Shown piece after piece: positions 867 to 29,262 of a stretch of 38,285 nt of DNA. This DNA comes from Chloroflexota bacterium (GTDB lineage Bacteria; Chloroflexota; Dormibacteria; CF-121): positions 1 to 38,285 of the forward strand of contig VBID01000050.1 of the NCBI GenBank assembly GCA_005880615.1, read 5' to 3'. A program made the position numbers and the translations under genes. The notes below the pieces were generated by a model. That model saw only the letters and a program-made list of their open reading frames with translations. It ran no database searches and had not been told where the DNA came from. How positions within the stretch are numbered: position 1 is the first letter of the stretch; each line of letters opens with the position of its first letter.

Positions 867-1757
867 TCACTGAATCATCACACCACTCGGCGCACTCGGG
901 GGCGCCGGGATGTTCCCTCCGATGGGCCCCGCCCACGTGTCATCGCGGATCTGCACGGCCGCAAAGTACCAGAACAAGCCGGTGTCTGTCGCGCTCGAAT
1001 TTCCGTTGTTCCCCATACCGAAGTTGGTGATGCTCCGCCCGCCTGAGTGCGACGCGACGTAGTCCTGGACGCAGAAGGTGAGCCCGGCCGCATAGTAGGT
1101 CGCCAGCGTCCAATCACTGCGCCCGTTCCAGACTTGGAGCCCGAAATCTTCTTGCCGGTAATCACTCTCGGTGAGCACGAGCACATTCGACGCATCATAG
1201 ACGCGCGGATGCACTTGGATGTGCGTCGCGTCCACGTAATGCACCCAGAACTCGAAGCGGTACCACGCCCCGAGGGCCAACCGCTTCGCCGAGTACCAAT
1301 GGCCGATTGGATAGACGTAGCCGCAGCCGTAGAAGCTCGAAATCGGCTGCCAAGAAGTCGAACTCGATGACTTCCGGACGAACGTGAGGTTCGGGTACTC
1401 CCACGTGTCCACGGTGACGACGTGATCCCCCTGCTGCGAGGTGTCGTCGTTCCGCATGTAGAACCGGACGTAGTAGTCCCGACCGACCGGGAGCACATCG
1501 TTCTTCTGCACGTTCGCCGGCCAGAGGGGGCCGTGCTGCGTGAGCCGCAGCGCGTTCAGGCCGCTCGGTCCGCCCGTCACCACTTGCATCACGGGCGTCG
1601 GCGGGAAGTCCCACGAGGTCGCCCAGGTCCACCGGCCCCCATCGGTCCACGCGGTCTGCGAGGTGCCGAGGGCCGTGCTCCACGCCGACTCGAACAGAAT
1701 TCCCGCGTCGGCCGTGGACGCGATGAGGAGCAGCGCGAGAAAAGCGCGCCACATCAC
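867..1757 (-). CDS. Secreted/virion-associated carbohydrate-binding or lyase-like protein, beta-rich, signal peptide, FN3-like linker at C-terminus
   Basis: MMWRAFLALLLIASTADA signal peptide; beta-rich body; ends PPSAPSGVMIQ*. Confidence 0.6.
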   Translation of the reverse strand: MMWRAFLALLLIASTADAGILFESAWSTALGTSQTAWTDGGRWTWATSWDFPPTPVMQVVTGGPSGLNALRLTQHGPLWPANVQKNDVLPVGRDYYVRFYMRNDDTSQQGDHVVTVDTWEYPNLTFVRKSSSSTSWQPISSFYGCGYVYPIGHWYSAKRLALGAWYRFEFWVHYVDATHIQVHPRVYDASNVLVLTESDYRQEDFGLQVWNGRSDWTLATYYAAGLTFCVQDYVASHSGGRSITNFGMGNNGNSSATDTGLFWYFAAVQIRDDTWAGPIGGNIPAPPSAPSGVMIQ

Positions 1758-2455
1758 TGCGTCTTGATACTGACGGGGGTCTTCGCACTCTCACCGCCTG
1801 CCCCTCGCGCGGAGATTCCCCACGTCTGCTGCCCGTGGCCCGGGAAGATCGTGGCGGGCGGTGCCGCAATCGACTGCTGGAAGACCCACGTCTGCCCTTT
1901 CAACCGATAGATGGCGAAGTCGTCGGCGCCATCTACCGGCACCCAGCCTAGGGTGCAGCTCGCCGTGTCTCACTGGACGGTGACACCCGTCGGCGCACTC
2001 GGAATCACGCACGTCGCCTCCTTCGTCCGGTCGACCACCAGCGGCGCCGCCGCCGCACGGGTCCCTTCTCCGCCCGAGACGGACATCGCAGAGACCGCGA
2101 CATTGATGATCCCCGACTGACACGGGAGGATCGGCGCGAGGATGACGCTATTCGTGATGACGCCGCCCCCCGTCGCCTTCGACGCCGGCACCACGACCGT
2201 CGATTCCACGCCGATCCCGACCTTCCAGTAGATGTGCGTCTCCTTGAGGTCGGTGAGCGCGAGGCCGGACGTATAGGTCGTCGGCTCCGTGTACGTGACG
2301 AGCGGAATCGTCCCGGTCGGCGTGACGGTGAAGGGATCGGCACTCGCGACCGACGCGACCACGAGCCAGAACGCGGCGGTCGCGATGACGCAGAACGCCC
2401 AGAAAAGCCAGAACGCGATCGGGCCGGACTTGTCGTCAAGGATCCTGAGTCGCAT
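1754..2455 (-). CDS. Signal-anchored secreted protein (1970-2455) followed in frame, across a TGA (1970-1972), by an FN3-like C-terminal half
   Basis: MRLRILDDKSGPIAFWLFWAFCVIATAAFWLVVASVASA N-terminus; ...PSAPTGVTVQ(TGA)DTASCTLGWVPVDGADDFAIYRL... is one continuous frame apart from the TGA. Confidence 0.55.
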
Positions 2456-2796
2456 CACCACTCCTCCGCTTTCGCCAACAAGGCGTGCGCCTCGTCCTCC
2501 GTGAGCCACCGCTCGGGCACGCAGCCGAACGGGCACGCCATGGACTTGGTCAGGCCCCACACCCGGCAGATCATCGGGCGGATGTCGTAGACGGAGCACG
2601 TACCGGATGGCGTCAACAGCGGGCACTGAAGACTCAGTTGGCGCCACGCCTTCCCCATCCGGCGCTCGATCCGAATCCGCTCCTCCCCGCTGAACACGAT
2701 CGGCCCACACGCCTCCTGACACTTCCGCTGACAGTTGAGCCGCGGCAGCGACGCATACGCGCGGTCGAGCTCGACGCTCCGGATCGCGCGCGTTAT
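2455..2796 (-). CDS. YkgJ-family-like cysteine-cluster (Zn/Fe-chelating) protein
   Basis: LNCQRKCQEACGPIVFSGEERIRIERR...CPLL..GTCSVYDIRPMICRVWGL..SMACPFGC; true start appears upstream of the listed GTG (2697), possibly ATA at 2796. Confidence 0.7.
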   Translation of the reverse strand: MTRAIRSVELDRAYASLPRLNCQRKCQEACGPIVFSGEERIRIERRMGKAWRQLSLQCPLLTPSGTCSVYDIRPMICRVWGLTKSMACPFGCVPERWLTEDEAHALLAKAEEW

Positions 2797-3125
2797 GGCG
2801 TCTTCGGCGGCAGCGATGGCGGCACCACGCTCCCCGCAGAGGCCGGGGGTTCCTTTCCCTGCTGGTAGATGAGCCCGTCGCCGCAGTCCACGGTCAGCGT
2901 AAAACTATTCTGACCCGCGCCACCGAGGCCCGCCGAGAGACTCGTCTGCCCGACACCCGTCACGCTGCCTTTGCCGCGGCACTCGACGTAGCCGGGATAT
3001 TCGCCCGCGCCCTTCAGGACGTAGCCGCAGCCCCCCGTCAAGGATGCCAGCAGCAGGACCACCGCGAAGCGTCTTCGATAGGGCTTCGGGTCTTCGTAGG
3101 TCGCGAGTGCGTACCAGGGCCTCAT
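2793..3125 (-). CDS. Lipoprotein (possible o-spanin-like)
   Basis: RRFAVVLLLASLTGGC lipobox; next to holin-like ORF. Confidence 0.55.
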   Translation of the reverse strand: MRPWYALATYEDPKPYRRRFAVVLLLASLTGGCGYVLKGAGEYPGYVECRGKGSVTGVGQTSLSAGLGGAGQNSFTLTVDCGDGLIYQQGKEPPASAGSVVPPSLPPKTP

Positions 3126-10446: not shown

Positions 10447-10753
10447 GAGCCACACCATCATGAGCGCGGTTGATCCAATCAGCAGGCTGGAAATGATCGT
10501 GCGTCGTCTCATGCAGAACGCGAAGCCCCAACGTCGCCGCATCCGCCTCCACCTCCGGCTTGTTCGGGTCGGTCGCGACAGCCGCACCGGGGCGATCATA
10601 AACCACATCCGCCCCCAAAAACCACGTGTGCGGGTCGCCATCGAATCCGCCGACGGAGACGCTGTGCTTGACCGTGCGGCCCCACGAGGTCACGGAGCCG
10701 CCGTGCTTCTGGCAGACAATCGCAAGGGCTTCCGCGAACTCCCCGATGCTCAT
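10439..10753 (-). CDS. Peptidase M15-like (VanY/D-Ala-D-Ala) endolysin candidate
   Basis: GGSVTSWGR..H..VGG..GDPHTWFLGADVVYD......LGLRVLHETTHDHFQP pattern of Zn M15 peptidases. Confidence 0.65.
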   Translation of the reverse strand: MSIGEFAEALAIVCQKHGGSVTSWGRTVKHSVSVGGFDGDPHTWFLGADVVYDRPGAAVATDPNKPEVEADAATLGLRVLHETTHDHFQPADWINRAHDGVAHA

Positions 10754-11106
10754 TGTATTTCGGCGCAGCGATTTATTTTCTTCCGGTCCTCGCCCGCGTC
10801 GTTCAGGCAGAGCACCTTGAGCCCGGTCATCAAGACGCGGGTATTCGTCTCAAGCCGCTCCCGCTGCGCCTCCATCGACCGTTGCACGGCCGACATCTGG
10901 CTTGTGGTGCTCGTGAAGACCGACGGCACGTACCCCGCGTCCCGCGCGAGGAAGTAGACGGCGATGAACGCCGGGAACCCGACGACGCCGATGATCCGCA
11001 CCCACTTCGGCAATCCGTTGAACATCTCGTGCTGGTTTACCTCCACCATCCTCCGGAGGACGCGGTTCTCGAGCGCCAGCTCTTCCGGCGTCTTCTCATT
11101 GGCCAT
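10750..11106 (-). CDS. Single-TM coiled-coil protein (i-spanin/holin-like), next to endolysin
   Basis: MANEKTPEELALENRVLRRMVEVN...WVRIIGVVGFPAFIAVYFLA... Confidence 0.5.
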   Translation of the reverse strand: MANEKTPEELALENRVLRRMVEVNQHEMFNGLPKWVRIIGVVGFPAFIAVYFLARDAGYVPSVFTSTTSQMSAVQRSMEAQRERLETNTRVLMTGLKVLCLNDAGEDRKKINRCAEIQ

Positions 11107-11302
11107 AGGCCCTCGCCACGGACGTGAGACGAATCGAGCAGGCCGCGCCAACGCGCGGATACGCCACAGGAGCGCGGTGGAGCGCCACCTCCGTCTGGGG
11201 CCGGCCACAGAACCGGCAGCAGTCGGGCGGGAGCTGCGTCCGGTCCGAGCACTTGCCGCCCGGCACCCAGCGGTCGCAGTTCGTACAGAACTGGCGCGTC
11301 AC
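11096..11302 (-). CDS. Zinc-ribbon-like small protein
   Basis: CTNCDRW...CCRFCGRP. Confidence 0.5.
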   Translation of the reverse strand: MTRQFCTNCDRWVPGGKCSDRTQLPPDCCRFCGRPQTEVALHRAPVAYPRVGAACSIRLTSVARAYGQ

Positions 11303-11970
11303 TGGTGGTCTCCGACCATGCGCGCGTCATGCGGGCGACCGTGGACGAGTTGCGCCTGCGGCCCCACGATGTTCCTCAGATACCGCTTGACCATCACCGG
11401 CCAGAGCCAGGTCGGGATGCGAGGGTAGAGGCGACCCCGGTGATACCACGTGTGGCCGATCGTGCCGCCGCCGAGATGCGCGAAGATCGGGTGGCCCTCA
11501 TCGTCCGCCGCCACGTCACAGGTGGAGAGCCACCAGGGGAGGATGGCGCGGTCGCAGGGGGAGGCGAAGACACCGTTGCCCCACGCGCCGATGCGTTCGC
11601 CAACATCGGCCCCGCTCCGGAGCCCGTAGGTGAACGGTGGGCTCTGACGCAGATACGAGACGCTATACAGCGTGCCGAGCGGGTGAGGATAGCCGCGCGC
11701 GGCCCTCCAGAACGCCGCCCACGTCTTCCCTTCGGCCTTCGCCACGAGCCACGACAACCACCCGACCCTGAGCGGTGCTGCGTCGTCGTCCATCGTCATG
11801 AACCACTCGGCGTCGTCGGGCAGCCCCGCGAACGCCGCGTCGAGATTCTCCCCGTGGCTCCGGCCTCGCGCCACGATGACCCGATGCGGCTCGGGCGTCG
11901 TCCGCGCGATGGCCCAGCGGGCGCAGTGCTCCAGACGCGGCGTCACGGTCGGGATCGCGATGTAGATCAT
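11299..11970 (-). CDS. Glycosyltransferase (GT-A/GT2-like)
   Basis: MIYIAIPTVTPR...DDAEWFMTMDDDAAPLRVGWL (DxD-type motif), coupled ORF. Confidence 0.6.
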   Translation of the reverse strand: MIYIAIPTVTPRLEHCARWAIARTTPEPHRVIVARGRSHGENLDAAFAGLPDDAEWFMTMDDDAAPLRVGWLSWLVAKAEGKTWAAFWRAARGYPHPLGTLYSVSYLRQSPPFTYGLRSGADVGERIGAWGNGVFASPCDRAILPWWLSTCDVAADDEGHPIFAHLGGGTIGHTWYHRGRLYPRIPTWLWPVMVKRYLRNIVGPQAQLVHGRPHDARMVGDHQ

Positions 11971-12791
11971 TGGGTGCCGCACTCCACACACACTCGGCGC
12001 GCGTCCACGGCGGGAGCGCCGCAGAACTGACAGGTCCACCGGGCGTCCTTCGCCGAGACGACGAGCTCCGGGGCCTGCCAGATCGTTTCCCGGGTCTGCC
12101 AGACGACGCGGAGGTTGCGCCGGAGATACGCCACGGTTTCCTCGCGCCGTGCGGGCGTCGCGAGGTTCACGTCGCCTGCGCCACGCGCGAAGTTCCAATA
12201 GAGGAGGCCGCCGGGCTGGAGCGCTGCGACGAGGTGGATGGAGACGGTCAGGGGGTCCGGGAGATGCTCCAGCACGTCGAGGGCGGTGATGACCTCGAAG
12301 GCCCCGACCGCCGGGACCTCACGGCACACGATGGCCTGAGGGAGCCGCGCCTGGGCGTAGTCCCGGTGCGGCGAGGGGACGTCCACGAGTACGTAGGTCC
12401 AGTCGGGCCGGCGCTGCCGGAGCCACGCGGAGACCGGCGCGACGCCGCAGCCGAACTCGAGGAGTTGCCCCCAGCGCCCCATGCCCGCCAGCACGGTGCG
12501 CCAGGCGGTGTGGCGGCGATGGATGATCTGGCGGTAGAGGAGATAGTCGCTCGTGGCGTAGAAGCCAAGCGCGTCCTCCTCCGTCTTCACGGCGGTGAGC
12601 TGCTCCTGGGCCCGTTCGCGACGGACGGCGTAGCGCACCCACACCTCCTCGCGGGTCAGGCGCGGGTCGCCACTCACGCGCGCGAACTCCCGGACCCACG
12701 CCTGCGGCCAGCCGAGACCCTCGCCGACACGCCGCCCGACGCGCTCGACTCGATCGAGCGCACTGGCGAGGGCGAGCCGCCAGCGCCTCAT
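11967..12791 (-). CDS. SAM-dependent methyltransferase with C-terminal zinc ribbon
   Basis: LLEFGCGVAPVSAWL; VITALDVLEHLPDP; CxxC..CxxC C-terminus. Confidence 0.75.
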   Translation of the reverse strand: MRRWRLALASALDRVERVGRRVGEGLGWPQAWVREFARVSGDPRLTREEVWVRYAVRRERAQEQLTAVKTEEDALGFYATSDYLLYRQIIHRRHTAWRTVLAGMGRWGQLLEFGCGVAPVSAWLRQRRPDWTYVLVDVPSPHRDYAQARLPQAIVCREVPAVGAFEVITALDVLEHLPDPLTVSIHLVAALQPGGLLYWNFARGAGDVNLATPARREETVAYLRRNLRVVWQTRETIWQAPELVVSAKDARWTCQFCGAPAVDARRVCVECGTQ

Positions 12792-13342
12792 GGTCTCGCC
12801 ACCACGGTAATGCGGGAGGAGATCCGGAGCGCCGCGACGACGCAGCCGAGGGCGAGCGTCCACCACCACGGGCCGCGGACGTGCTTGACGATGCGCTGGT
12901 GCATGATGCGGACGCGCGTGAAGCCGCAGCCGAGCAAGAGCAGCTCGAGCGTCCCCGGCGTCCACTCCATGTAATGCCCCGGATGGCGGGCCTCCCAGCG
13001 GTCCCTCATCACCCACGCCTCGAGCGAGCGCGCCGAGGGCACCGAGAGCACGAAGTAGCCGCCGGGGACGAGGGCACGCCGGATCGCCCGGAGCACGATG
13101 AGCGGCTCCTTCACGTGCTCGAGCACCTGCCACGCGAAGATGGCGTCGTAGTGCTGGACCGGGGCCGCATCGGCCCACTGCTCGGCGGTCGGATCGCCTA
13201 CTGCGGGCTCCAGCGTGTCCACCTTCCATCCCCGTGCTCGCGCTGCACGCGCGAAGTCTCCCGCCCCGCTCCCGATCTCAAGCACTCGCGCGCCGTGATG
13301 AAGCGGCGGGAAATGCCAGATCCTGCGAACGCCAGCTCTCAC
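12788..13342 (-). CDS. SAM-dependent methyltransferase with C-terminal hydrophobic segment
   Basis: VLEIGSGAGDFARAARARG; AIFAWQVLEHVKEP; LVPGGYFVLSVP. Confidence 0.8.
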   Translation of the reverse strand: MRAGVRRIWHFPPLHHGARVLEIGSGAGDFARAARARGWKVDTLEPAVGDPTAEQWADAAPVQHYDAIFAWQVLEHVKEPLIVLRAIRRALVPGGYFVLSVPSARSLEAWVMRDRWEARHPGHYMEWTPGTLELLLLGCGFTRVRIMHQRIVKHVRGPWWWTLALGCVVAALRISSRITVVARP

Positions 13343-14430
13343 TGGCTCCCCAGCCGGTCAAACCATCCGAGAGTCACGAAGCCGACGCTGATCGTGCCGT
13401 CGGATGCCGAGAGCCGGAACCGGACCTGGGCGGCGGTATTCGTGCGGACCTGGGCCGGAAGGGCCCCGATGGTCCCGGCGGTGAAGACGTTGACGGTGTG
13501 CCCAGGCGGTGCCAATGCCCCGTTGTACGCGATCGGCGCCTCGTCATTCGCGGCGAGGTCGGACACGAGGATCGAGGACTGCGTCGCCGTCGTCTTGAGG
13601 AGCACGTTCCCGAACCACTGGACGTTCACGCCGGTCGGGACGTTGAGCGTCACGGACGAGGCGCTCGTGCCCGGGTTCGTCACCGCCGTGATGGTGGAGG
13701 TCGCCCAGCGGAAATACTGGCTGTCCTGGGTGAAGTAGTTGATCGCCTTCGAGCCGTCGGTGAGCACTGACCCGATCCGCCGCTTGTTCGTGTAGGAGGC
13801 GGGCAGCACGGGCGCGGTCGCGGAGGTGGAGCACAGCACATCGGCCACGGCCGTATCCGAGCGGTAAATGGCGAAGACCGAGTACCAGGTGGACGCGGCG
13901 ACCGCGCCCGCGTCGAGACAGCCGTTGCCGGTCCCGGCGGACCACGCGGCCGTCGTCTTCGTGAAGGCCGAAGCGAGCGAGATGAGGACGCGGCTCGAGA
14001 TCGCGGTGTCATCGGACGAGGCCGCGCCGACGGCGATGCCGATCGTGGTCGAGGGGTTCGTCCCGCCGTTCGAGAGCGTCAGACCCGTGCGCGTCTCCGC
14101 CAGGCCGGAGGTCACGCCGGGGGCGACTTGAACCCAGGAGGAGCCGTTGTCAAGATACGCGGTGCCACCGTTCACGTCGGAGGCGATAAACCAGCGCCCC
14201 GATGTGCTCGCGGCGGGCCGAGCACCAAGCGTTCCTATAGTGGCCTCCCGCGCATTTATATAATTCACGAGCGATGCCCAATTTTGGTCGAGCAAACTCG
14301 CGGCGAGATTCGGCCCGCTCTGCGCGGCGATATTGTTCGGGACGGAGGCGGTCCCAACCGCGCGCGAGGTCGCCGGCGCGAGGATCAGGAGGGCGAGGAG
14401 GACGGCGAGCCAGCGGCCCTGATGCCTCAT
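13339..14430 (-). CDS. Tail fiber-like protein with N-terminal signal peptide
   Basis: MRHQGRWLAVLLALLILAPATSRA + VPNNIAAQSGPNLAASLLDQNW; STWYSVFAIYRSDTAVADVLCSTSATAPVLPASYTNKRRIGSVLTD. Confidence 0.7.
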   Translation of the reverse strand: MRHQGRWLAVLLALLILAPATSRAVGTASVPNNIAAQSGPNLAASLLDQNWASLVNYINAREATIGTLGARPAASTSGRWFIASDVNGGTAYLDNGSSWVQVAPGVTSGLAETRTGLTLSNGGTNPSTTIGIAVGAASSDDTAISSRVLISLASAFTKTTAAWSAGTGNGCLDAGAVAASTWYSVFAIYRSDTAVADVLCSTSATAPVLPASYTNKRRIGSVLTDGSKAINYFTQDSQYFRWATSTITAVTNPGTSASSVTLNVPTGVNVQWFGNVLLKTTATQSSILVSDLAANDEAPIAYNGALAPPGHTVNVFTAGTIGALPAQVRTNTAAQVRFRLSASDGTISVGFVTLGWFDRLGSQ

Positions 14431-14876
14431 GGGAAGCGCATCCCGTGAGCAGCGAAACGCCGATGCCACTTAAAACAGATTTTGCAACTACGGTGACCCC
14501 TGTTCTTGTATGTGTTCGCGGCATCGTAGGGATGCCCACGCGGGCAGTGGGTGCGCCGAACCTGGACGCCGCTGAAGCCGTTGCCGCGCCGCCGGTTTTC
14601 TGCACCCGTCACGCATTCAAGATGCGCCGGGTTCACGCACAACCGGACTCGACAGAGATGATCCAGTTGCTGACCCTTCGGGATGGGACCTCGGAAGACC
14701 ATGTACGAGGCGCGATGAGCATAGAAGGCGACACCGCCGCGTTTCCCGTTCGGGATATAGAGGCCTCCGTAGCCCTGCCCGCGAACCGGCCCCGTCCAGA
14801 GCCAACAGCCAGTATTCGGCTCGGGCTCCGTTCTGGCGTCGAGGCGCTCGTATAAAAGGCTCAGGGGAATGACCAT
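14427..14876 (-). CDS. HNH (homing) endonuclease
   Basis: NTGCWLWTG...AHRASYMVFRGPIPKGQQLDHLCRVRLCVNPAHLECVT...CPRGHPYD. Confidence 0.85.
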   Translation of the reverse strand: MVIPLSLLYERLDARTEPEPNTGCWLWTGPVRGQGYGGLYIPNGKRGGVAFYAHRASYMVFRGPIPKGQQLDHLCRVRLCVNPAHLECVTGAENRRRGNGFSGVQVRRTHCPRGHPYDAANTYKNRGHRSCKICFKWHRRFAAHGMRFP

Positions 14877-16318
14877 GTTCTCGATTCTACAACTTCTAGC
14901 TGGATGGCCTGAATCCGATAAGGCGGATCGTTGCCGCTGACTGTGACGCCAAGAAAGTGTCCCCACATGTTCACGTTTGCCCGCGCGAGCACCATGCCCT
15001 GCGCCGTGATCGTTAGATTCGCCAAGGCCGCGTTTTGCAGTTGGAGCGTCGCGCCAATGGCATTGATGAGCGTGAGCGTATCCACAGCCGAGATCGCCGT
15101 CGTCTGGCTCGCGAACTCCGAGTCCACCGTCACCGTCGGATTCACCTGCGCCGACGCTTGAAACTCAAACCCGATCTTGTAGCACGCCTTCATTGTGGTG
15201 GATAACCCGAAGTCGAAGAGCCGTGTCTGTATTTTATAGGGCGTCGCCGTCGCATTGCTCGCCCCGAACAACTGGAAGATATGCCCCGCCGTGTCCGCGC
15301 CCCACGCCTGCGCGACCCCGTTGACGATGAGCGTCGTGATCCATTTGATCGTGGTGCCCTGGCTCGCGAGAAACACCTTGCCCTTCGTGAACCCGATCAC
15401 GATCGGGATCGGTCCCGCGCCGGCCTGCGCCTGCGTGCCCGTGTAGGTCACGAGGAAGAGGAGGCAGAGGGAGAGCACCCACGGGCCGAAGGGCGCGAAG
15501 AGGGCGAGGGCCCGGAAGTAGGGGATCACGGAGTTCTGGGCGTTACTCCCGAGGTCCGAGACGATGTTCGTGATGGAGAAGCTCGTGATGACGTTCGGGG
15601 CCACGCCGGAGGCGGTCACATTCGCGAGTTGCTCGATGCCGCCCTGGCCGACGATCCAGAGGGCCTCCAGCGTGGAGGCGAGCGCGACGACATTCCCCGG
15701 GAATGCCGCGTCCGTGATGATCGTGGATCCGGCCCCATTCCCCGCGGTGAAGTCGTTGAACGTATTGGGGGCGGTGTAGGTGATGGTCCGCTGGCTCGAG
15801 ATCCACGCCCGCCCCTCAAAGACGGCGATGGCGTCGCCTTTCTGGGAGGCGGAGATCGTCGTGAACGTCGTCCCGTCGTAGGAGAAGTAGCCTTTCGTCG
15901 GGTCGATGATGAGCGCCGTGGAGCCCTGCCACATGCTGAGACGCGCGGCCGTGGTGACGGTGCCCGCCGCGGCGACGACGGTGACAACACCCCCGGTCGT
16001 GATCTTGGAGATCGAGCCGTCGGAGTTGATCGAGACGAAGACGCCGCCCGAGGAGAAGGGCACGCCCCAGAGGGAGGCGATCCCCTGCGCGATCGTGGCG
16101 ATGGAGGCCCCGGGGCCGTTCAGAATCTGGATCGCGCCGTTCCCGATGGGAAGGGCGTTCTCGCACCAGGAAAGCTCGGAGTCCTCGATGCTGGCGCGGG
16201 CATCGGTGAGGTTGAGCGTTTTCCACTGGCGGAACTGGTAGGTCTTCGCCTTCTGCGGCCTCGGCTGCCGCCCCTTGCCATTGCCGCGCTGCTGGAGGTC
16301 GCGGAGGCTAACCGCCAT
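14861..16318 (-). CDS. P22 gp10-like packaged-DNA stabilization/tail protein
   Basis: Beta-propeller-like repeats; position beside adaptor; LFLVTYTG..PIPIVIGFTKGKVFLASQ..IKWITTLIVNG pattern. Confidence 0.5.
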   Translation of the reverse strand: MAVSLRDLQQRGNGKGRQPRPQKAKTYQFRQWKTLNLTDARASIEDSELSWCENALPIGNGAIQILNGPGASIATIAQGIASLWGVPFSSGGVFVSINSDGSISKITTGGVVTVVAAAGTVTTAARLSMWQGSTALIIDPTKGYFSYDGTTFTTISASQKGDAIAVFEGRAWISSQRTITYTAPNTFNDFTAGNGAGSTIITDAAFPGNVVALASTLEALWIVGQGGIEQLANVTASGVAPNVITSFSITNIVSDLGSNAQNSVIPYFRALALFAPFGPWVLSLCLLFLVTYTGTQAQAGAGPIPIVIGFTKGKVFLASQGTTIKWITTLIVNGVAQAWGADTAGHIFQLFGASNATATPYKIQTRLFDFGLSTTMKACYKIGFEFQASAQVNPTVTVDSEFASQTTAISAVDTLTLINAIGATLQLQNAALANLTITAQGMVLARANVNMWGHFLGVTVSGNDPPYRIQAIQLEVVESRTWSFP

Positions 16319-16523
16319 CAGCGGCGCTCCACGTCTCCAGCAAGAACCTCCCGAGCAGCACGCAGTGATCCGCCCGCACGACGACCGTCCCGTGGCCCTG
16401 CACGGTGATGACGCAGTTCCCCGCATCGTCGACTTGGGCCTGAAGCTCCCGGATCGTCGGGTCAAGCCGAGGCCGCGCCTGGTTCACCGCAGCCCAGCGG
16501 AGGGCGAGGGCCTTATCGGCCAC
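16308..16523 (-). CDS. Hypothetical protein
   Basis: MADKALALRWAAVNQARPRLDPTIRELQ...; coupled ORF. Confidence 0.5.
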   Translation of the reverse strand: MADKALALRWAAVNQARPRLDPTIRELQAQVDDAGNCVITVQGHGTVVVRADHCVLLGRFLLETWSAADGG

Positions 16524-17172
16524 TGTAGAAACTCGGCACCATGCCGGTGCGAGAGTTTAAGCCTGTGCCCACTCTCTCCTGATACATCCGGAAGAAATCG
16601 TCGCTCTCGTCATACATTCTTTCGTTCAGCTTGAGCCAGTGCGCCGCGTACAGTGGCACCGGCTCCGTGTACGTGTACGGCATCGGGTCCGTGTCAGCCA
16701 AGTTCACGAGGAGATCCGGTGCGGAGTACACGCACACGTCCCACTCGGTTTGATAGGCGACGGAGGGCGTCGGGCCAAAGACGATCTGATTCGGGCCGTA
16801 GCGCGCCCAACCTTCGCACACGCCCTGATACGGGGTCCAGGGCCGGTAGAGCTTGTTGAGACGCCGAAACGAGGTGTTCGCGAGGATCGCCCGGTTCGAC
16901 ACGAAGATCAGGTTGATCCCCACCACGTCGAAGACGTTGGCGACGCCGATCTGGGGGAAGGTGTAGGTATCGACACCGACCGTCAGGTTGAACGTCACGA
17001 GCTGGCGGTTCGCCCCGGTGTCGAGGTCGCGGCGTTGAATCCCGAGGTTGATCGCGCGCGTCTTCGTGGCCTGAGACCAGAAGACATCGCTCGGGTCGTG
17101 GAGCAAGGTCCGGAGGTCGGTCAGATAGGTTGACAGGGAGACGGTCGGGGTGGTCGGGACGCCGATTGGCAT
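16513..17172 (-). CDS. Head-tail adaptor (P22 gp4 / tail tubular A-like)
   Basis: TYLTDLRTLLHDPSDVFWSQATKTRAINLGIQRRDLDTG... typical adaptor N-terminus. Confidence 0.6.
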   Translation of the reverse strand: MPIGVPTTPTVSLSTYLTDLRTLLHDPSDVFWSQATKTRAINLGIQRRDLDTGANRQLVTFNLTVGVDTYTFPQIGVANVFDVVGINLIFVSNRAILANTSFRRLNKLYRPWTPYQGVCEGWARYGPNQIVFGPTPSVAYQTEWDVCVYSAPDLLVNLADTDPMPYTYTEPVPLYAAHWLKLNERMYDESDDFFRMYQERVGTGLNSRTGMVPSFYSGR

Positions 17173-19698
17173 CTAGGAGCCCACGCAGATGAAGCGCACG
17201 ACATCGCTCGCCGCCGCGCTCAGCGTGATCCCGTTGCCGCCGTTCTGAACGACCTTGCAGGCGGTGATGGAGGTGTCGTCATCGCACACGCAGGTGTAAC
17301 TGGTCGCGTTCGTGAAGGCGGCCGAGCCCGCGAAGGCCACGCCCGCGGTGCCGCCCGTCAACGTCACGGTGTCCTGCACGATGTGCGCGGCGTTCGTGAT
17401 GGTCCCGCTCGCGTTGTAGAGCGGGGTCGCGACGGCGGTGCCGTTAATGTAGTAGCCGTTGGCGGCTGCGATGTTGACCGTGCCCGCGCCCTTGTCCCCG
17501 CCCGTCGCGTTGATCGTAAAGAGGCCGCCGGTGTTGCCGACTTGCAGGCCATCGGTATTCCCCTGGTTCATCGCGCGGAGGCCCGAGCTATCCCCGCGGA
17601 TGATGAGCAGGTTAGCCGCGCTCTGCATGGAGGGTCCGGTCGCGCCGGTTCCGAAGAAGATCGGGAGCGTGATCCCCGGCGTCCCGGTCGGCGTGAAGAG
17701 CCCAGCCGTCACCGTGTCGATCGTCGCCTTCGGGGCGTAGAGTCCGACGTTCGTCAGGGTCCGCGTGGCCGCCGTGGAGTTATTGAGGACGTAGGCGTAG
17801 CCCGTCGGGCCCTGCGCCGTCCCGTTCGCCCCCACGGGGAACTTCTCGACGTGGATGTCGTCCACATTCAGGTTGATGGCGGTGAAGGCCCCCGACGGCG
17901 CGTTGAACTGGAACCGGAGGCTCATCGTGAGATTCGACGCGAGGAGCGAAGTGTTGAGCGTCACCGGCGTCCAGACCCCGGCCTTGAGCCCCTTGATGAA
18001 GGCCGTCTTCAGGACGGCCGCCCCGGTGTCGTTGTTCCAGTAGGCGCGCGCCGTCTCGGTGTCGAGCATGTCCCGCGAGGCTTTGATCCAGAAGGTCGCC
18101 GTCATCAGCTCGCCCGTGAGTCCGAGCCACGTCTGGGTCGAGGTCGCGACGAGACCGTTCGACCCGGCCGTGCCGTCGTAGGCGAGCTTGAGGGAATTGC
18201 TGTCGACGACCCCCGTCGTCGTGTCCTGCGTGATCGTGAGCCCGCCCCCGCCCCCGCCGAAGTTCGACGCTGTCGCGAAGGAGGAGTCAAAGAAGCTATT
18301 GGCGATGACGGAGCGCCCGGAGGCGAAGGGCGAGGTCCACTGGAGGGCCTGGAGGTTATTGTAGCTCGGACTGTTCGCGGAGACGATGAGGTTCCCGATC
18401 CCCTTATCCTGGATCTTCTCGTCCCCGGAGGTCTTGGTCCCGAGGCGGTTATGGAAGGACGCCGTGTCGAACTGGATCGTCGGCCCGAAGGCGTTCGCCA
18501 CGCCCTGCTGCGTCAGGCCCCCGTTCTCCACGTACACGTCAAACTCGTTGAAGAAGCCGTTGCAGTAAATGAGCGTGGGGCCGTTGGCGATCTCGCCCCC
18601 GGCGAAGATGTTGCTGTTGGAGTTCGACTCGACATAGATCCCGTAGACGTTGGAGGAGAAGTTCACGGCCGTGAAGATGTTGGCGTTCGAGAGCGTGAGG
18701 TGGACGCCGTAGTAGGAGTCCGTCACCACGAGGGAGTCGAAGAGTGCGTTGAAGCTGGAGGTGAGATTCACCCCCGCCTTGGCCGTCGTGCGGCAGTTGG
18801 AGACGTAGACGTGACGGACGGTGACGGGGATGCCGTTGGCGGCCCCGTTGATGTTGAGGCCGTTCCCGGCGGCCAGATTGGTCGAGAGGCAGTCGATCTG
18901 CATGTCTCGGATCTCGTGGTAGATGTTATTCGCCGCCCCCGAGATCGAGACGCAGTCCGTCCCGTTGTTGTGCGTGCACTGGAGGAGCGTGTTCCCGATC
19001 CCAGCGCCGATGACGATCAGCGGGACCGTCGTCGGGAAAGTGAGGGTCGAGGTGATCTTGTACGAGGTCGCCGCGGGGACGTAGAGGATGCCGCCCCGGT
19101 TGAACGCGGTCTGGAACGCCGCGGTGTCGTCGGTCGTCCCGTCGCCCTTGGCCCCGTAGTCCTTGACGCTCGCGATGTAGGTATTCGTCGTCGTGACCGT
19201 CGCCCATTTCGCCCCGTCCCAGACCTTGAGCGCCTGGAGCGTCTGATCGAAGCACCACGTCTTGCCAGTCGTGGGCGAGGGGATGTTGAGGCAGCTCGGC
19301 GTGGCGTTGAGCCACGTCGTCGTGGCGAAGATGTTGGGGGCGGTGCCGGGGATGGCGAAGGCGTCGTGGAGGATGAAGTCCTGCGTCTGCGCGGCACCGA
19401 AGGTGAAGCCGGGCGCACTCAGGACTTCCGTGTAGCGCCCCGAGGGCGCGTAGTAGGCGTAGGTCCCATCGCTCCCCGCCGTGATCGGGTTGCCGAGGGC
19501 GGAGGAGCCGGCTTGGTCCCCGTAGATCGTGGCTTTCGTGGTCGTGCCGGCGATGTAGACCGTGATGGAGCAGGCGGGGATCGCGGCCCCGGTGATCGAC
19601 TGGCAGAGCCAAGAGCGGCGCTGCATGGCGTCCGACGCGGACGGCAGCAGGAGCAGCGCGATTAGAGACAAGAAAATGTTTCTAATCGCAGAGCGCAC
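17173..19698 (-). CDS. Tailspike with pectate-lyase-3-type beta-helix and N-terminal signal peptide
   Basis: MRSAIRNIFLSLIALLLLPSASDA|MQRRSWLCQ; VKDYGAKGDGTTDDTAAFQTAF beta-helix hallmark. Confidence 0.85.
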   Translation of the reverse strand: MRSAIRNIFLSLIALLLLPSASDAMQRRSWLCQSITGAAIPACSITVYIAGTTTKATIYGDQAGSSALGNPITAGSDGTYAYYAPSGRYTEVLSAPGFTFGAAQTQDFILHDAFAIPGTAPNIFATTTWLNATPSCLNIPSPTTGKTWCFDQTLQALKVWDGAKWATVTTTNTYIASVKDYGAKGDGTTDDTAAFQTAFNRGGILYVPAATSYKITSTLTFPTTVPLIVIGAGIGNTLLQCTHNNGTDCVSISGAANNIYHEIRDMQIDCLSTNLAAGNGLNINGAANGIPVTVRHVYVSNCRTTAKAGVNLTSSFNALFDSLVVTDSYYGVHLTLSNANIFTAVNFSSNVYGIYVESNSNSNIFAGGEIANGPTLIYCNGFFNEFDVYVENGGLTQQGVANAFGPTIQFDTASFHNRLGTKTSGDEKIQDKGIGNLIVSANSPSYNNLQALQWTSPFASGRSVIANSFFDSSFATASNFGGGGGGLTITQDTTTGVVDSNSLKLAYDGTAGSNGLVATSTQTWLGLTGELMTATFWIKASRDMLDTETARAYWNNDTGAAVLKTAFIKGLKAGVWTPVTLNTSLLASNLTMSLRFQFNAPSGAFTAINLNVDDIHVEKFPVGANGTAQGPTGYAYVLNNSTAATRTLTNVGLYAPKATIDTVTAGLFTPTGTPGITLPIFFGTGATGPSMQSAANLLIIRGDSSGLRAMNQGNTDGLQVGNTGGLFTINATGGDKGAGTVNIAAANGYYINGTAVATPLYNASGTITNAAHIVQDTVTLTGGTAGVAFAGSAAFTNATSYTCVCDDDTSITACKVVQNGGNGITLSAAASDVVRFICVGS

Positions 19699-20240
19699 TA
19701 GACGGCCTCGAGGAGGGCGGAGACCACCTTCAGTCTCGCGCGCTTCTGTCGCATGTAGAGGCGGTGGTAGTTACGCGAACAGTGGAGACACCGACGGCGC
19801 TTGCCTTCAGGAATGGCGCTGAATCGGCTGTTCTCCTGTGTCATCGCGTGGCCGTTCTTGCAGACGAGTTGTGGGTGGTTGCCGCGTCGCCCGTGCGCAT
19901 TCGTGAAGGTGCGATCACCGCGCAGTGCTCGTGCGGCCTGAGTGCGCTTGATCGGCGAGAGCCATGCCCAGAGCATTGCGATGACGGCCTGGGCGTGTTC
20001 GAATGACGCCGTTCGATAATCGAAACGGCGCGTCTGCCGTGCATTGCGTCGGTAATCATATGGACCGTAGATCCTCCCGACGCCGACGGCTTGGCGAAAG
20101 CGCTCTAGCACATACGGTAGACCGGGAACATCGTGCGTCTCGTTCTGAGTGACAGCGACGTGCGCGGCACCACCATGCACGCCAGTTGATCCCTCACCGT
20201 CGAAGAGTCCGGCCGCCCAGGCGAGCTCGTGAGTGTTCAT
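19698..20240 (-). CDS. LAGLIDADG-type homing endonuclease
   Basis: ELAWAAGLFDGEGST LAGLIDADG motif; C-terminal CKNGHAMTQEN..CLHC. Confidence 0.7.
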   Translation of the reverse strand: MNTHELAWAAGLFDGEGSTGVHGGAAHVAVTQNETHDVPGLPYVLERFRQAVGVGRIYGPYDYRRNARQTRRFDYRTASFEHAQAVIAMLWAWLSPIKRTQAARALRGDRTFTNAHGRRGNHPQLVCKNGHAMTQENSRFSAIPEGKRRRCLHCSRNYHRLYMRQKRARLKVVSALLEAV

Positions 20241-20265
20241 GCATCCGATTGTAATTCACCACGAG

Positions 20266-21405
20266 CTAGACGACGAGGTTCGTATATCCGGCCTGTGAGG
20301 TGAACGTACTCGGCTTGACGCAAATTCCCTCAAGGACCACAATGAGTGCGCCGACGTACCCCAACGCGAAGTTCGGCAACGTGCTCGCGAATCCCGTGAA
20401 CGCGAACGCCGCCGCCTCGTGGATGTAGAAGCTGTAGTAGCGGGTATTAAAAAAGATGAACTGGCCTTCAGGCATATATAGATCCTGATAAATTGGGACT
20501 CCCGCGACCATCAGCGCCGTGAAGCTCGCCCTCGCCCCCTGCGCCGACTGATCGAAGCTACTCCCCGGCGTGATGAAGTAGGTCTCCGACCCGATGAAGT
20601 CGTTGGCGAGCAAGGCCCACGTGCCGGGCCCGCAGACGCCGATGTTCGGCGCTTCGCCGCCCGCGGCCTTCGTCGCCGACACGACCATCTGGTTGATGAG
20701 CTTTCGCGTCGGGGCCACGGTCCCCGCCGAGCCCATCACGTTCGCGTTCCACCAGGTGTTGGGCGACGCGCTCGAGATGTTGCCGTAGGTCCGGGAGGTC
20801 GACGCGATCAGCGGGAAGCCGTCCACGTTGATCGTCCCGTAGGTGCCGTTCGACATCTGCTGGGTCGCGAGGTAATCGGCGATCTGGTTCCCCGCGTCGT
20901 TCATCCTGGCTTCGATCAGCGGGATGACGGCCGCGTTCATCTGGAGGATGCCCTCCATCCCGAGGAAGGGGATCGGCACGATGACGGCCTTCAGGTTGAA
21001 GTCCGCCTCGGTGATACCCGTCTGCACGGCGGGCTGGTTGAAGGCCCCCGTGTAGTCCGTCGCCTGCGCCTGGACGAAGGGCGAGCCCTGCACGGGGACG
21101 GTGACGGAGGAGACACCACCGCTCGCGGTCTGCGCGTTGGCGAGCGCGGCGCTCAGAATGGCCGTGGCCTTATATATCTGCACGGGCACTCTGGGCACAA
21201 ACGCCCTTCTGGTGACCGCAGTCAACTCGGTCCCTACCGCGCCTGTTGGGACGATTCCCGTTCCGGTTAAAACGGCAAATGAAATCAACAGGATAGATAG
21301 CACTGCTAGCGGCCCGCTGGCGGGAGATGCGCTTACGGCAGCGTCCGCGGTTACAGGCACAACAAGCAGGAGCACGAGTACTGTTAGGAGTGCGCGTAAC
21401 CGCAT
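20266..21405 (-). CDS. Major capsid protein with N-terminal signal peptide plus second hydrophobic segment
   Basis: MRLRALLTVLVLLLVVPVTADAAVSASPASGPLAVLSILLISFAVLTGTG then TAVTRRAFVPRVPVQIYKAT...PIPFLGMEGILQMNAAVIPLIEARMNDAGNQIADYL; AGGAGG 8 nt upstream of ATG. Confidence 0.7.
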   Translation of the reverse strand: MRLRALLTVLVLLLVVPVTADAAVSASPASGPLAVLSILLISFAVLTGTGIVPTGAVGTELTAVTRRAFVPRVPVQIYKATAILSAALANAQTASGGVSSVTVPVQGSPFVQAQATDYTGAFNQPAVQTGITEADFNLKAVIVPIPFLGMEGILQMNAAVIPLIEARMNDAGNQIADYLATQQMSNGTYGTINVDGFPLIASTSRTYGNISSASPNTWWNANVMGSAGTVAPTRKLINQMVVSATKAAGGEAPNIGVCGPGTWALLANDFIGSETYFITPGSSFDQSAQGARASFTALMVAGVPIYQDLYMPEGQFIFFNTRYYSFYIHEAAAFAFTGFASTLPNFALGYVGALIVVLEGICVKPSTFTSQAGYTNLVV

Positions 21406-21437
21406 CACTGGCCTCCTGAAAGTGCTAAGCTGCGTCC

Positions 21438-21983
21438 GTGGGCCACGGGCCATCTCTGCCGAAGGGCGTCTTGACGTGTGGTCAGTGCGGGAAGCAGACC
21501 GAGGTGCTCGGCAGCAAGCTCAAGGATTATCCGAGCCGTCCAGCTCGTAAGTACTGCTCGCTCGCATGCGCCGCGAAGGGCCGAATGAACCGCACGCACT
21601 TTCAGTGCGCGCAGTGCGGCCGGTTTGCTCCGCGCCGTCACGGGAACTATTTGCGAAAGCGATTTTGCTCGAAGGACTGTGAGGTGGCGTCGCGCGAGGG
21701 AAAGGGCTTTCTCGACAAGCACGGATACAAAATCATTCGGATGCGCGGACGGGATACGCCCGAGCACCGTATTGTCATGGAGGGGATGATCGGGCGCCCG
21801 ATGCTGCCCCACGAGACGGTTCATCACAAGAACGGGCAGCGAGCGGACAACCGCCCTGAGAATCTGGAGTTGTGGGATACGCGCAACCCGAAAGGCCAGC
21901 GCGTCTCCGACAAGCTCGCGTGGTGTGCGACGTATCTGACCGATCACGGCTTCCACGTCACGCCTCCGCCGTCGCAGGCGTAG
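21438..21983 (+). CDS. HNH endonuclease with two N-terminal zinc fingers, opposite orientation
   Basis: CGQCGKQ..CSLAC, CAQCGRF..CSKDC; EHRIVMEGMIGRPMLPHETVHHKNGQRADNRPENLELW. Confidence 0.85.
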   Translation: MGHGPSLPKGVLTCGQCGKQTEVLGSKLKDYPSRPARKYCSLACAAKGRMNRTHFQCAQCGRFAPRRHGNYLRKRFCSKDCEVASREGKGFLDKHGYKIIRMRGRDTPEHRIVMEGMIGRPMLPHETVHHKNGQRADNRPENLELWDTRNPKGQRVSDKLAWCATYLTDHGFHVTPPPSQA

Positions 21984-23133
21984 CCAGACCCACCACGATC
22001 AGGCCGACTAGCGCGATCGGCACGACGTGCAGCGGGAAGAACCCGAGCGAGTTCGCGGCCAAGGCGCTCACGCTCCCGCCCCAGACGGGATGAACGAACA
22101 TCGCGCGATGGGTCCAGAGCCAGCCGACGAGGAGGATCCCGCCGATGAGCCCACACTCCGTCAGCCACTGGATCGGCTCCGAGTGCGCCTCGCGCCACAA
22201 CTCATTCGCCCCGAACGGCAGGAACTTCTCGTGGACCTGGAGGAGCGGCACGTGGTTCACCCAGCCGCCCAACCCCCAGCCGAGCACGGGATCATAGACC
22301 GCCGCGTGCTTCAACCCGAACTTCCAGACGGCGAAGCGGGAGGCGACGGCGGGAGTCGCGAGGCCCTTGAGATAGAGCATGGAAAGAAACGCAAGCCCCC
22401 CGAATCCCGCCGCTACGAGGGGCCACGTCAAATCAACGGACTGACCGTTGGATAGATGGCGACCACCCCCCCAGAGCGCGCGGACGCTTAATCCCACCGC
22501 CAGCGCCAGCAGCGCCGACAGCGAGTGCCCCAGCCACACAACCGGGATGGCGAAGACTAGGAGCCACCAGGGCATGAGCGGGGCGAGGATCGCGATGTAG
22601 GCCGAGACGCTATCGACCCCGCCGAGGGTGCCGATCGGCTGAAACGCGGTCGAGTGGACGCCCGGCGACCAGAGGATGTCGTAGCCTGCGTGCTGCTGGA
22701 ACACGTAGACCACTTGGAACGCGCCGAGTGCGGCGAGGAGGCTGGCGAGATGAGGGCGCCAGTGCCCGGGCACATGGCGAACGGCCACGAGCATCACCGC
22801 ACCCAGCGCGAACACGGCCGTGTGACTCGGGCCAAGGGTCACACTGCCGAACTGGTCCAGCGTCGCCCCGAGGGTCGCCCCGCGGTAGAAGACGGTCACG
22901 CCTGCGAGCCCGACCGCCATCCCGAGCCAGCGGTCCCCTTCACGCCAGATCATCGTGCCGAGGACGCCGAGGGCGACCAGGTAGAACGCCTGGAGCCACC
23001 AGAGCTCGATCCCCTGGACGATCGGGTACTGCGGCAAGCCAAGCCGCGGGGCCCAGAGAGACAGCATCGGGAGCCACGTGGCGAAGGGGGCCACGAGGGC
23101 CCCGCCCAGGATCAGGGGCCACGCCTTCTGCAT
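21958..23133 (-). CDS. O-antigen ligase/polymerase (Wzy/WaaL)-like polytopic membrane protein
   Basis: Multiple TM segments; GWGLGGWVNHVPLLQVHEKFLPFGANELWREAHSEPIQWLTECGLIGGILLVGW motif typical of the family. Confidence 0.7.
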   Translation of the reverse strand: MQKAWPLILGGALVAPFATWLPMLSLWAPRLGLPQYPIVQGIELWWLQAFYLVALGVLGTMIWREGDRWLGMAVGLAGVTVFYRGATLGATLDQFGSVTLGPSHTAVFALGAVMLVAVRHVPGHWRPHLASLLAALGAFQVVYVFQQHAGYDILWSPGVHSTAFQPIGTLGGVDSVSAYIAILAPLMPWWLLVFAIPVVWLGHSLSALLALAVGLSVRALWGGGRHLSNGQSVDLTWPLVAAGFGGLAFLSMLYLKGLATPAVASRFAVWKFGLKHAAVYDPVLGWGLGGWVNHVPLLQVHEKFLPFGANELWREAHSEPIQWLTECGLIGGILLVGWLWTHRAMFVHPVWGGSVSALAANSLGFFPLHVVPIALVGLIVVGLATPATAEA

Positions 23134-23137
23134 CGGC

Positions 23138-23911
23138 CTAGATGCCCTGCTTCAAGATGATCCGGTACACGCGGAGGTAGTTCGGCCCCGCCGACCCGAA
23201 GCCCCAGAGGACGTTCAGGATGTGGGCAGACGCCGTGTTGACGTTGGCGACGGTCGCCGCGTTGAGGATCATGGCGGAGGCCGGGGTCCCGACCGAGACG
23301 TACTCGAGCCGCCCGTGCATGAAGACGGTGTTGACGATGTTCGGCGTGGCGTTCCCCGCGGAGGCGAGGTTCGTCATGTTCCCGGTCGCGATCGGGGAGA
23401 GGTAGACATCGAGCAGGAACGGCGTGCCGACCAGCGAGACCGTCGGCGTGACCGCGTTGGCGAGCGTGATGGTCGCCGGTCCCGACGCGACCGCGGCCTG
23501 CGTGCCGACGCCATAGTTCACGCCGACGTTGATCGTGCCCGGCGTCGCCCCCGTGTCGAGGACGCCCCCGATCTGCAGATGGAGCGGGATCGAGCTATTG
23601 AGGGGGCCGAGCGTCGGCTGTCCGGGCACCATCGTGGAGGTCGTGTTCGCCGCGGCCTGGGTCGCGAACATGGCCCCCGGGATGACGATCGAGAAGAGGT
23701 TGACGCCGCCCGTGGCGGCGTTCGAGAGAATCACCGACGCCGTCGAGTAGTAGAGCGTCCCCGCCGGGCCGATGACGGTCACGGCCGGCGTCTGGGCCGA
23801 AGCGACCTCCATCGGGATCGGCGGGAGACCGGGGACCCACGAGAGGAGCAACGCTGCGATCAGCACCCACGCGATCAGTCGGAAGCGTCGCATACGTCCT
23901 CCTCTGGCCAT
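23138..23911 (-). CDS. Putative head decoration/virion protein with N-terminal signal peptide
   Basis: MARGGRMRRFRLIAWVLIAALLLSWVPGLPPIPMEVASA|QTPAV; beta-rich; between scaffold-like gene and MCP. Confidence 0.5.
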   Translation of the reverse strand: MARGGRMRRFRLIAWVLIAALLLSWVPGLPPIPMEVASAQTPAVTVIGPAGTLYYSTASVILSNAATGGVNLFSIVIPGAMFATQAAANTTSTMVPGQPTLGPLNSSIPLHLQIGGVLDTGATPGTINVGVNYGVGTQAAVASGPATITLANAVTPTVSLVGTPFLLDVYLSPIATGNMTNLASAGNATPNIVNTVFMHGRLEYVSVGTPASAMILNAATVANVNTASAHILNVLWGFGSAGPNYLRVYRIILKQGI

Positions 23912-24558
23912 CACTGCCTCCCCTGCTGGACATCCCACGGGGCCGGATCGAGCGGTCGCCCGGCCTTCAGGTCCTCGAGGTCCTTGTACGCGCGCTTCAA
24001 CGCCCACTGACGCCCGACCGAGCGGCCTTCGCCTTCACCGATGCCGGGGCCCCCGCCCGCCGCCTTCACGAAGTAGTCGCCGCCCGCGCCCTGGATGCCG
24101 GGGAGTTCGGTCACGAGGGACGACGAGCGCGGCGTGCCGACCTGGCTCTGCGTCTTGTAGTAGTTCGCGGCGACCTCGTAGTCCGCCGTCAGGCGCTCGA
24201 TCATGAGCTTCTCGATCCGCTCGATGTCCCCGTCCGAGTAGCCCTGGGCCTTCAGCTTCTGGTGGGCGGCCTCCCGCGAGCGGCTCTGCATCTCCGCCTC
24301 GCGCTCCCGCTTCCACTCCTCGCGCTCTTTTCGGACTTCCTCGAGCGTCTTCGCGCGCTCGCGCTCCGCGGCCTGGCGCATCTCGGCCATCGGGAGGGAG
24401 CCGGGGGCGACCTTCTCCACGAGCTTTCGCATCTCGGGGCCGGTCTCGGGATCGTTCCAGAGGAGGTTCGCCAGACGGCGCTCGGCCTCGACGCGCTGCT
24501 GCTGCTGCTCGGGCGTCGGCGCGGGCTTACCGGGTTCGGCGACGATCGGCTCGGCCAT
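23911..24558 (-). CDS. Scaffolding-like protein
   Basis: Glu/Lys/Arg-rich helical central region; position between portal and MCP. Confidence 0.55.
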   Translation of the reverse strand: MAEPIVAEPGKPAPTPEQQQQRVEAERRLANLLWNDPETGPEMRKLVEKVAPGSLPMAEMRQAAERERAKTLEEVRKEREEWKREREAEMQSRSREAAHQKLKAQGYSDGDIERIEKLMIERLTADYEVAANYYKTQSQVGTPRSSSLVTELPGIQGAGGDYFVKAAGGGPGIGEGEGRSVGRQWALKRAYKDLEDLKAGRPLDPAPWDVQQGRQ

Positions 24559-26673: not shown

Positions 26674-27099
26674 ATGGCGCAGTGGCAAGAGCTTAACGAG
26701 GCGGTGTGGGAAGAATGGCTCGCCGGTCGCCCGGAGGTCATTCAAGAATTAGCGCGGCGCTTTCGTCCAGATCGGTTGTATCGCCTCACGTCGAGCGGCC
26801 ATCGGTGTTACCCGGTGTCGTATAGCGAGAACGGGACGCTGACGGTTGCGGTGACGGGTCAATTCAACCGCATTCTGTTCGGGCGGAAGGTCTTTGGCAT
26901 CAAGCCCGAGGATTTGATCGAGTGCGATCTGCCTGGGCCAGACGAGGATCTCGGCGAGACTGCGCGTGAGGCGGGCTACTCAGACGACGACATCACCAAC
27001 ATCCTGATCCCGAAGCTACGTAGGACCTGGGGATCAAGCACCGAAAGTCCTAGCCCCGCATCGCCTTCACTTCCTTCGCCTTCGCCTCCCGCTCCTTGA
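26674..27099 (+). CDS. Hypothetical protein, partner of HTH gene, overlaps portal 3' end
   Basis: ATG immediately follows HTH stop codon; 50-bp convergent overlap with portal. Confidence 0.55.
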   Translation: MAQWQELNEAVWEEWLAGRPEVIQELARRFRPDRLYRLTSSGHRCYPVSYSENGTLTVAVTGQFNRILFGRKVFGIKPEDLIECDLPGPDEDLGETAREAGYSDDDITNILIPKLRRTWGSSTESPSPASPSLPSPSPPAP

Positions 27100-28720: not shown

Positions 28721-29262
28721 GGGCGATAGCCGGGGATCTTCAGATAATGGCCCATGAGCAATCCTCGCGTTGGGCGTTTGTGGCTATCCGAACTCCTCAC
28801 CTCAGCTCCGCAGCCGCAGAGACACGGACGACCCGGAAGAGCCGCTTGTTCTGCGCTCACTCGGGCGCGACGCTGCCTGCCCGTTTCGTTGCGACAGATG
28901 CTACAACGGCGGCCGAGTCCGTCGAGGACATCGTAAACGTGACCGCGCGGGCAGACGACCTGCCGAGCCTTGCGTGCGCCGACGCCGACGCCGCGCATGG
29001 CATTGGTGTACATCGTCACGGCTTCGAGGTGGGCCGGGTTCACACAGGCACGAACACGACAGAGGTGGTCGAGGGTCAGTCCTGGCGGGATCGGTTCGCG
29101 GGCTAACTCATAGACGACTCGGTGAGCGTATGCCGCGCGACCATTCCAGCGAACCGCGCCGTAGTCACCATGCTGGAATCGCGCGCCGGTCCACAACCAG
29201 CATCCCGAATTCGGCTCCGGCGAGATGAACTTCTCGATGCGTTCCGGCAGGGCCTCGACCAC
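28717..29262 (-). CDS. HNH (homing) endonuclease
   Basis: NSGCWLWTG...AHRVVYELAREPIPPGLTLDHLCRVRACVNPAHLEAVT...CPRGHVYD..CSICRN. Confidence 0.85.
   Translation of the reverse strand: MVEALPERIEKFISPEPNSGCWLWTGARFQHGDYGAVRWNGRAAYAHRVVYELAREPIPPGLTLDHLCRVRACVNPAHLEAVTMYTNAMRGVGVGARKARQVVCPRGHVYDVLDGLGRRCSICRNETGRQRRARVSAEQAALPGRPCLCGCGAEVRSSDSHKRPTRGLLMGHYLKIPGYRP

Follow-up and report, generated by a model that had tools for sequence, protein, structure and literature searches.

The textbook view is that tailed phages assemble entirely in the cytoplasm, and the locus described here raises the question of what virion-type genes behind secretion signals are doing in such a phage. The locus is a 38,285-nucleotide stretch of DNA (the window; contig VBID01000050.1), which is the entire contig C59 of a 3.6-Mb metagenome-assembled genome and whose minus strand, judged from its open reading frame (ORF) list and family matches, carries the late genes of a tailed phage (Table 1). 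An earlier reading made from the sequence alone (hereafter the sequence-only reading) had noted that six late genes, encoding the major capsid protein (MCP), the tailspike, the tail fibre, a putative head decoration protein and two distal late proteins, begin with signal peptides (SPs) of the Sec type, as if secretion signals had been added before the usual starts. Our analysis suggests that the spike, the fibre, the decoration protein and a number of further late proteins are very probably exported through Sec, and that the capsid protein has to be considered separately.

To score leaders we used a home-made rule that weighs n-region charge, the hydrophobic core and the -3/-1 site, and under which 11 known E. 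coli SPs score 9.7-13.3. All six leaders are present on the minus strand of the window and fit Sec criteria, with a positive n-region, a hydrophobic core and small residues at -3/-1; their scores of 11.1-13.7 lie within or above the E. coli range, and SP-scoring start codons make up 0.2-0.3% in Markov shuffles. By eye, a twin-arginine consensus was not seen in the leaders, and Tat export was rejected. The list of six was nonetheless incomplete, as the window holds a further, lipoprotein-like leader and its relatives carry many more SP genes. The long starts are backed by translation signals, as had been proposed: the MCP start has a perfect AGGAGG six bases upstream (position 21453 is a mechanical ORF start only), the spike GTG lies in a TAGTG overlap with the upstream ORF and follows a GAGG seven bases upstream, and the fibre start forms an ATGA overlap with an HNH gene. 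The decoration protein starts at ATG 23893 (AGAGGAGG) or 23911. Leader starts in general are preceded by good ribosome-binding sites or lie in stop-start overlaps, and a Shine-Dalgarno (SD) sequence or such an overlap is found at the decoration leader start in 8/8 members of the clade described below and at most other leaders.

MCP scans of viral contigs yielded the near relatives L002 and L003, whose MCPs are 96-98% identical to that of the window from about residue 56 on, the intermediate relatives L007, L008, L009, L093 and L096 (63-71%), and many distant ones. Aligning the window proteins with their homologues revealed that the leaders are lineage-specific and that the recognisable phage domain begins only after them, as the sequence-only reading had it. 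Residues 25-93 of the spike are homologous to the head-binding N-terminal domain of the tailspikes of Serratia phages MTx, Spe5P4 and MyoSmar and E. coli phages ECOO78 and Alux-21, with 37-45% identity to MTx, Spe5P4 and ECOO78 and 31% to Alux-21. These tailspikes differ from that of the window in starting at the domain, without an SP and without Cys at two domain positions, and the coding sequences from MTx, Spe5P4, ECOO78 and Alux-21 begin exactly at the equivalent of window residue 25. In L002, an unrelated SP stands before the same Met (APASA/M versus SDA/M in the window, the slash marking the predicted cut). The fibre SP is present in the window, L002, L008 and L009 and absent in L007 and L093; SP-less fibres (L007, L093, L123, L125 and L126) start with M-PGSLTIPN or similar, matching the start that cleavage would give the window and L009 fibres, and the mature N-domain is shared with phage fibres.

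Cysteine content was analysed in 42 SP proteins, each trimmed by a fixed 28 residues, and in a comparison set of 45 non-SP late proteins. SP proteins contain about three times as much Cys (14.4 versus 4.6 per 1000 residues), and the Cys count is even in 34 of the 37 that contain any (binomial 6e-8), compared with 16/26 of the non-SP late proteins. Even Cys numbers are favoured in the exported proteins of E. coli and, more weakly, of Burkholderia (PMC7678975). At fibre residues 170 and 199, all four SP-bearing fibres have C/C, while seven SP-less homologues (L007 and those of Bradyrhizobium, Rhizobium, Microcystis, Pseudomonas and environmental phages) have G with F, Y or L, once K/F, and never C/C. 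The head-binding domain of the spike likewise contains C32 and C43, two positions at which SP-less homologues lack Cys and usually carry Ala, and close Cys pairs have been gained in decoration proteins of relatives (CAPVGFC, CGGATQAPNAC and CTDLRVC). Because the paired Cys are absent from SP-less homologues, the spike, fibre and other SP proteins appear to fold outside the cytoplasm. The proposal of added secretion signals and oxidising folding is thus strongly supported for the spike, fibre, decoration and distal proteins by the paired Cys and the grafted starts, neither of which depends on the home-made SP rule, and the tailspike described as Cys-rich indeed has 13 Cys.

In an MCP tree with 85 tips, the eight SP-rich phages group as a clade of their own (support 0.95), to which L010 is sister. 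Counting every late-strand ORF with an SP-scoring start and applying no further filter, 27/151 ORFs score in the clade versus 2/617 in 47 other relatives (Fisher p=3e-18); on the antisense strand of the clade the count is 2/185. A small number of the 27, such as L008 10046 and L096 11912, are spurious calls within genes. The five longest members have 5-10 SP genes apiece. The ten of L008, four directly after the MCP, the decoration and fibre genes, and four distal ones, account for 3723 residues in a 43.7-kb genome. The freshwater phages ctz7E20 and ctah5458 (Manatee Spring) and relatives in IMG/VR share the same MCP (phrog_9953, 53-55% identical) and the same order of TerL, portal, scaffold and MCP, yet lack the MCP leader and the pair of decoration and Wzy_C genes and have practically no SP genes. 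As far as sequence can tell, SP leaders are a trait of one soil and environmental clade of tailed phages. The sister phage L010 has one SP-scoring gene (804-1349), upstream of its portal gene.

An SP leads the decoration protein of every clade member, even where identity has fallen to about 30%, and a strong SD is present in every case. The home-made rule misses the decoration leader of L002. The AF2 model of the decoration protein, of modest confidence, is all-beta and resembles phage spike and depolymerase domains; compared with the PDB, the fold gives weak, lectin-like matches (TM below 0.31). In the window, L002 and L003, decoration codons 1-23 are identical in DNA (window 23840-23911), the protein body being 70-81% identical. 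L093 has two decoration paralogues (7362-7952 and 9359-9980), both with SPs, on either side of its Wzy_C gene.

The MCP leader is found in the window, L002 and L003 only, and takes a different form in each: an SP-like and a transmembrane segment in the window, a different SP-like leader with a second segment in L003, and a transmembrane hairpin in L002, whose SP score is weaker (9.5), with loop charges of +/-/+ in all three. The sequence-only reading had listed the capsid among the SP-bearing proteins. Export of the kind proposed for the spike and fibre is not supported for it and was rejected on account of the second hydrophobic segment, which is predicted to return the capsid body to the cytoplasm, of the loop charges, and of the lack of a paired Cys gain, the two main Cys of the leader-bearing capsids also being present in leaderless L007. 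Membrane-tethered assembly, which was suggested at the same time, does fit the MCP, as a prediction only, and we consider it probable that in the sub-lineage of the window the MCP body is tethered on the cytoplasmic face of the membrane. A leader is not a general trait of this MCP family, as nearly all of the roughly 85 MCP relatives start with M-P[IL]xGxGIxP (a GIVP-like motif). Apparent leaders in L013, L017, L018 and L082, suggested by tblastn matches to query residues 1-8, were rejected as their start positions could not be read through as MCP in frame. Between the window and L002, the 19 codons of the junction carry 13 synonymous and 0 non-synonymous changes, and the junction is therefore translated; the segments upstream of it are almost wholly different, and in L002 no start codon occurs downstream of the leader until past the beginning of the junction. 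The 13/19 codons differing at the junction (window 21200-21290) compare with 78/316 in the MCP body, a local divergence peak that suggests recombination at the leader. In L003, an HNH-like frame recognised by eye lies on the opposite strand just upstream of the leader-bearing MCP (9400-9870), and the matching site in the window, at about 21450-21950, also has an insertion of roughly 500 bases. In L007, a tandem 14-base duplication (CACTGGTCGGCACC, 7408-7450) shifts the MCP start out of frame, as either an assembly error or a real change.

The explanation of the whole towards which we lean is that in this clade the proteins for receptor binding and decoration have come to be exported through Sec. 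That the exported proteins then join virions is, on balance, the expectation from the intact virion-binding domains at their mature N-termini and from gene position; virion-type features include the spike head-binding domain, the fibre N-domain, and BACON/fn3 and Hoc-like matches in L008. Removal of the leader by signal peptidase would restore the ancestral virion-binding N-terminus, and disulfides would form in the exported spike, fibre and decoration proteins, which may also be glycosylated outside. Heads would be filled in the cytoplasm, with the MCP, in the sub-lineage of the window, tethered to the membrane on its inner side, and opening of the membrane by the holin would bring virions to the waiting spikes and fibres, to be finished there. 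Assembly in two such compartments, with heads built on tethered MCP along the inner side of the membrane and spikes, fibres and decorations held outside, is a tentative model that we rate as somewhat less likely than not. If the proposal is true, an exported, cysteine-paired set of adhesins would take up roughly one-tenth to one-quarter of what the clade encodes, and either tailed virions can be completed beyond the cytoplasm, where disulfides and the glycan chemistry of the envelope are available, or lytic tailed phages have a secretome of virion-derived adhesins; either outcome would be new to our knowledge. Filamentous phages have SP-bearing coat proteins and assemble at the membrane; they differ from the clade in not being tailed, in having no procapsid or terminase, and in showing no homology to it. 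SP- and SAR-endolysins of tailed phages, such as Lys44 of fOg44, are likewise Sec-routed, and differ in being lysis enzymes, not virion-type adhesins (PMC6116005), and the nearest cases in the literature also include an SP-bearing, tail-hydrolase-like esterase of phage PBR31 (PMC10975493).

Several observations weigh against this explanation. The SPs were scored with a home-made rule and not with SignalP. The Cys-parity p-values are optimistic, as homologous proteins were counted as independent, and three counts are odd (two spikes and L008_11034). L007 and L093, two members of the clade, keep their fibre cytoplasmic. Several SP proteins, including the beta-helix protein at L008 13780 and the distal set, have no established place in virions and might instead be enzymes that the phage secretes. 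Searches of the open-access literature revealed no tailed phage whose structural proteins are exported, which is weak evidence of absence.

The last but one of these points leads to the strongest alternative, which we regard as rather unlikely: that the proteins are exported and never enter virions, acting as secreted or surface lectins and glycan enzymes that remove or hide host receptors, prevent superinfection or target the polysaccharide of the matrix. Many SP genes of L008, L009 and L093 are distal and variable and encode beta-helix or lectin-like proteins, and the clade's Wzy_C protein could alter surface glycan. Bacterial precedents exist in the MAT fibres of Bdellovibrio, which are likewise phage-fibre-like adhesins behind an SP, although encoded by a predatory bacterium (PMC10769870), and in Pantoea WceF, an exported tailspike fold that differs in having a Tat signal and being a bacterial biofilm enzyme (PMC7949094). 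Against a purely secreted role, the N-terminus of the mature spike is an intact head-binding domain and that of the mature fibre a phage fibre N-domain, no other spike or fibre gene was recognised in the window, and the decoration gene keeps a fixed place within the head module.

A further alternative, also unlikely and slightly more so, is that O-glycosylation is the reason for export, with a multi-transmembrane Wzy_C protein (O-antigen ligase or O-oligosaccharyltransferase-like) loading glycan on the exported virion proteins on the outward-facing side of the membrane. The Wzy_C gene lies between the decoration and MCP genes, adjoining the former, in 8/8 clade members, and the protein was not found in the loci of other relatives nor among 50,697 phage records. 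PF13489 methyltransferases are also present in the late region. In a genome search, the window protein matched PF04932 with 36.8 bits, above the curated cut-off of 31.7; hmmscan gave 41.2 bits for its L009 orthologue and no match at E 0.01 for the window protein. The Wzy_C family, for its part, also includes O-antigen ligases and polymerases whose substrate is not protein, the top PDB match of the fold, WaaL (7tpg), is weak (E 0.22, TM 0.3; model pLDDT 55), and co-occurrence within one clade amounts to one event. The protein may glycosylate either exported proteins or the host surface, as its active site would face the same compartment; that it glycosylates the exported proteins seems to us doubtful.

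We consider it very improbable that the leaders are translated without directing export, or that internal starts yield leaderless cytoplasmic forms, the leaders having another role or being neutral. The spike does retain a Met directly after its leader (M25), and tailed-phage parts normally assemble in the cytoplasm, but there is no SD before M25, no matching internal start exists in the L002 MCP, the leaders end in AXA-type sites on unrelated sequences, and the paired Cys gains are restricted to SP-bearing homologues. An artefact of assembly, binning or gene calling, as might be suspected from the metagenomic origin of the window and the assembly-slip-like duplication at the L007 MCP start, is scarcely credible given the same pattern in eight contigs at 30-98% identity, seven of which come from an independent virus collection.

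Table 1. Features of the window discussed in the text. Positions are those of the 38,285-nucleotide stretch, scores are from the home-made SP rule, and a slash marks the predicted cut.
Feature	Position	Strand	Details
SP-bearing distal late protein	867..1754	-	start ATG 1754; leader MWRAFLALLLIASTADA/G; score 11.2
SP- or transmembrane-led distal late protein	1970..2455	-	start ATG 2455; score 11.1
Lipoprotein-like leader, spanin-like candidate	2793..3125	-	LTGGC; score 11.5
Holin-like protein	10750..11106	-	phrog_4898 holin, E 1.5e-4
Tail fibre with SP	13339..14430	-	start ATG 14430; mature N-terminus equals start of SP-less fibres
Fibre SP	14359..14430	-	MRHQGRWLAVLLALLILAPATSRA/V; score 13.7; cut chosen by comparison with SP-less orthologues
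Tailspike	17173..19698	-	start GTG 19698; head-binding domain, then pectate-lyase-like beta-helix (PF12708, 47.6 bits)
Spike SP	19627..19698	-	MRSAIRNIFLSLIALLLLPSASDA/M; score 11.8
MCP with hydrophobic N-terminal extension	20266..21405	-	start ATG 21405; phrog_9953, E 8e-24, protein 75-371, after the leader
MCP second hydrophobic segment	21265..21309	-	LAVLSILLISFAVLT; predicted transmembrane, capsid body back to cytoplasm
MCP SP-like segment	21340..21405	-	MRLRALLTVLVLLLVVPVTADA; score 13.7
Multi-transmembrane Wzy_C protein	21958..23133	-	between decoration gene and MCP
SP-bearing decoration protein, head module	23138..23893	-	251 aa; leader MRRFRLIAWVLIAALLLSWVPGLPPIPMEVASA/Q
Decoration SP	23795..23893	-	score 12.6; predicted cut ASA/QT set manually, score rule cut elsewhere
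Scaffold-position protein	23911-24558	-	
Portal-type protein	27050-28720	-	
Terminase	30200-32275	-	phrog_2

The remaining SP-bearing genes of the window are distal. The protein at 867..1754 has a homologue in the L002 contig that is 53% identical and led by another SP (VEA/G), the leader at 1970..2455 has a similar counterpart in L142 at 8778, and the spanin-like candidate gave no family match. As for the host, 100 related bacterial genomes contained no match to the window MCP, and the host of the phage is therefore uncertain; with only five distant relatives among genome contigs, a prophage in relatives of the presumed host was rejected. The genome that holds the window has an Omp85 match and neither an LptD nor a WhiB match, and the contig may be mis-binned in it. 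Between the fibre and holin genes (11299-13342) lie the two PF13489 methyltransferase genes and one further ORF, glycosyltransferase-like by eye and without a Pfam or PHROG match. HNH_3 genes stand directly upstream of the fibre (14427-14966) and the portal gene (28717-29262), and the ORF directly upstream of the spike (19698-20240) has a LAGLIDADG-like motif, AAGLFDGEG, without a Pfam match; the SP-bearing fibre and spike genes are thus each preceded by an endonuclease-like gene.

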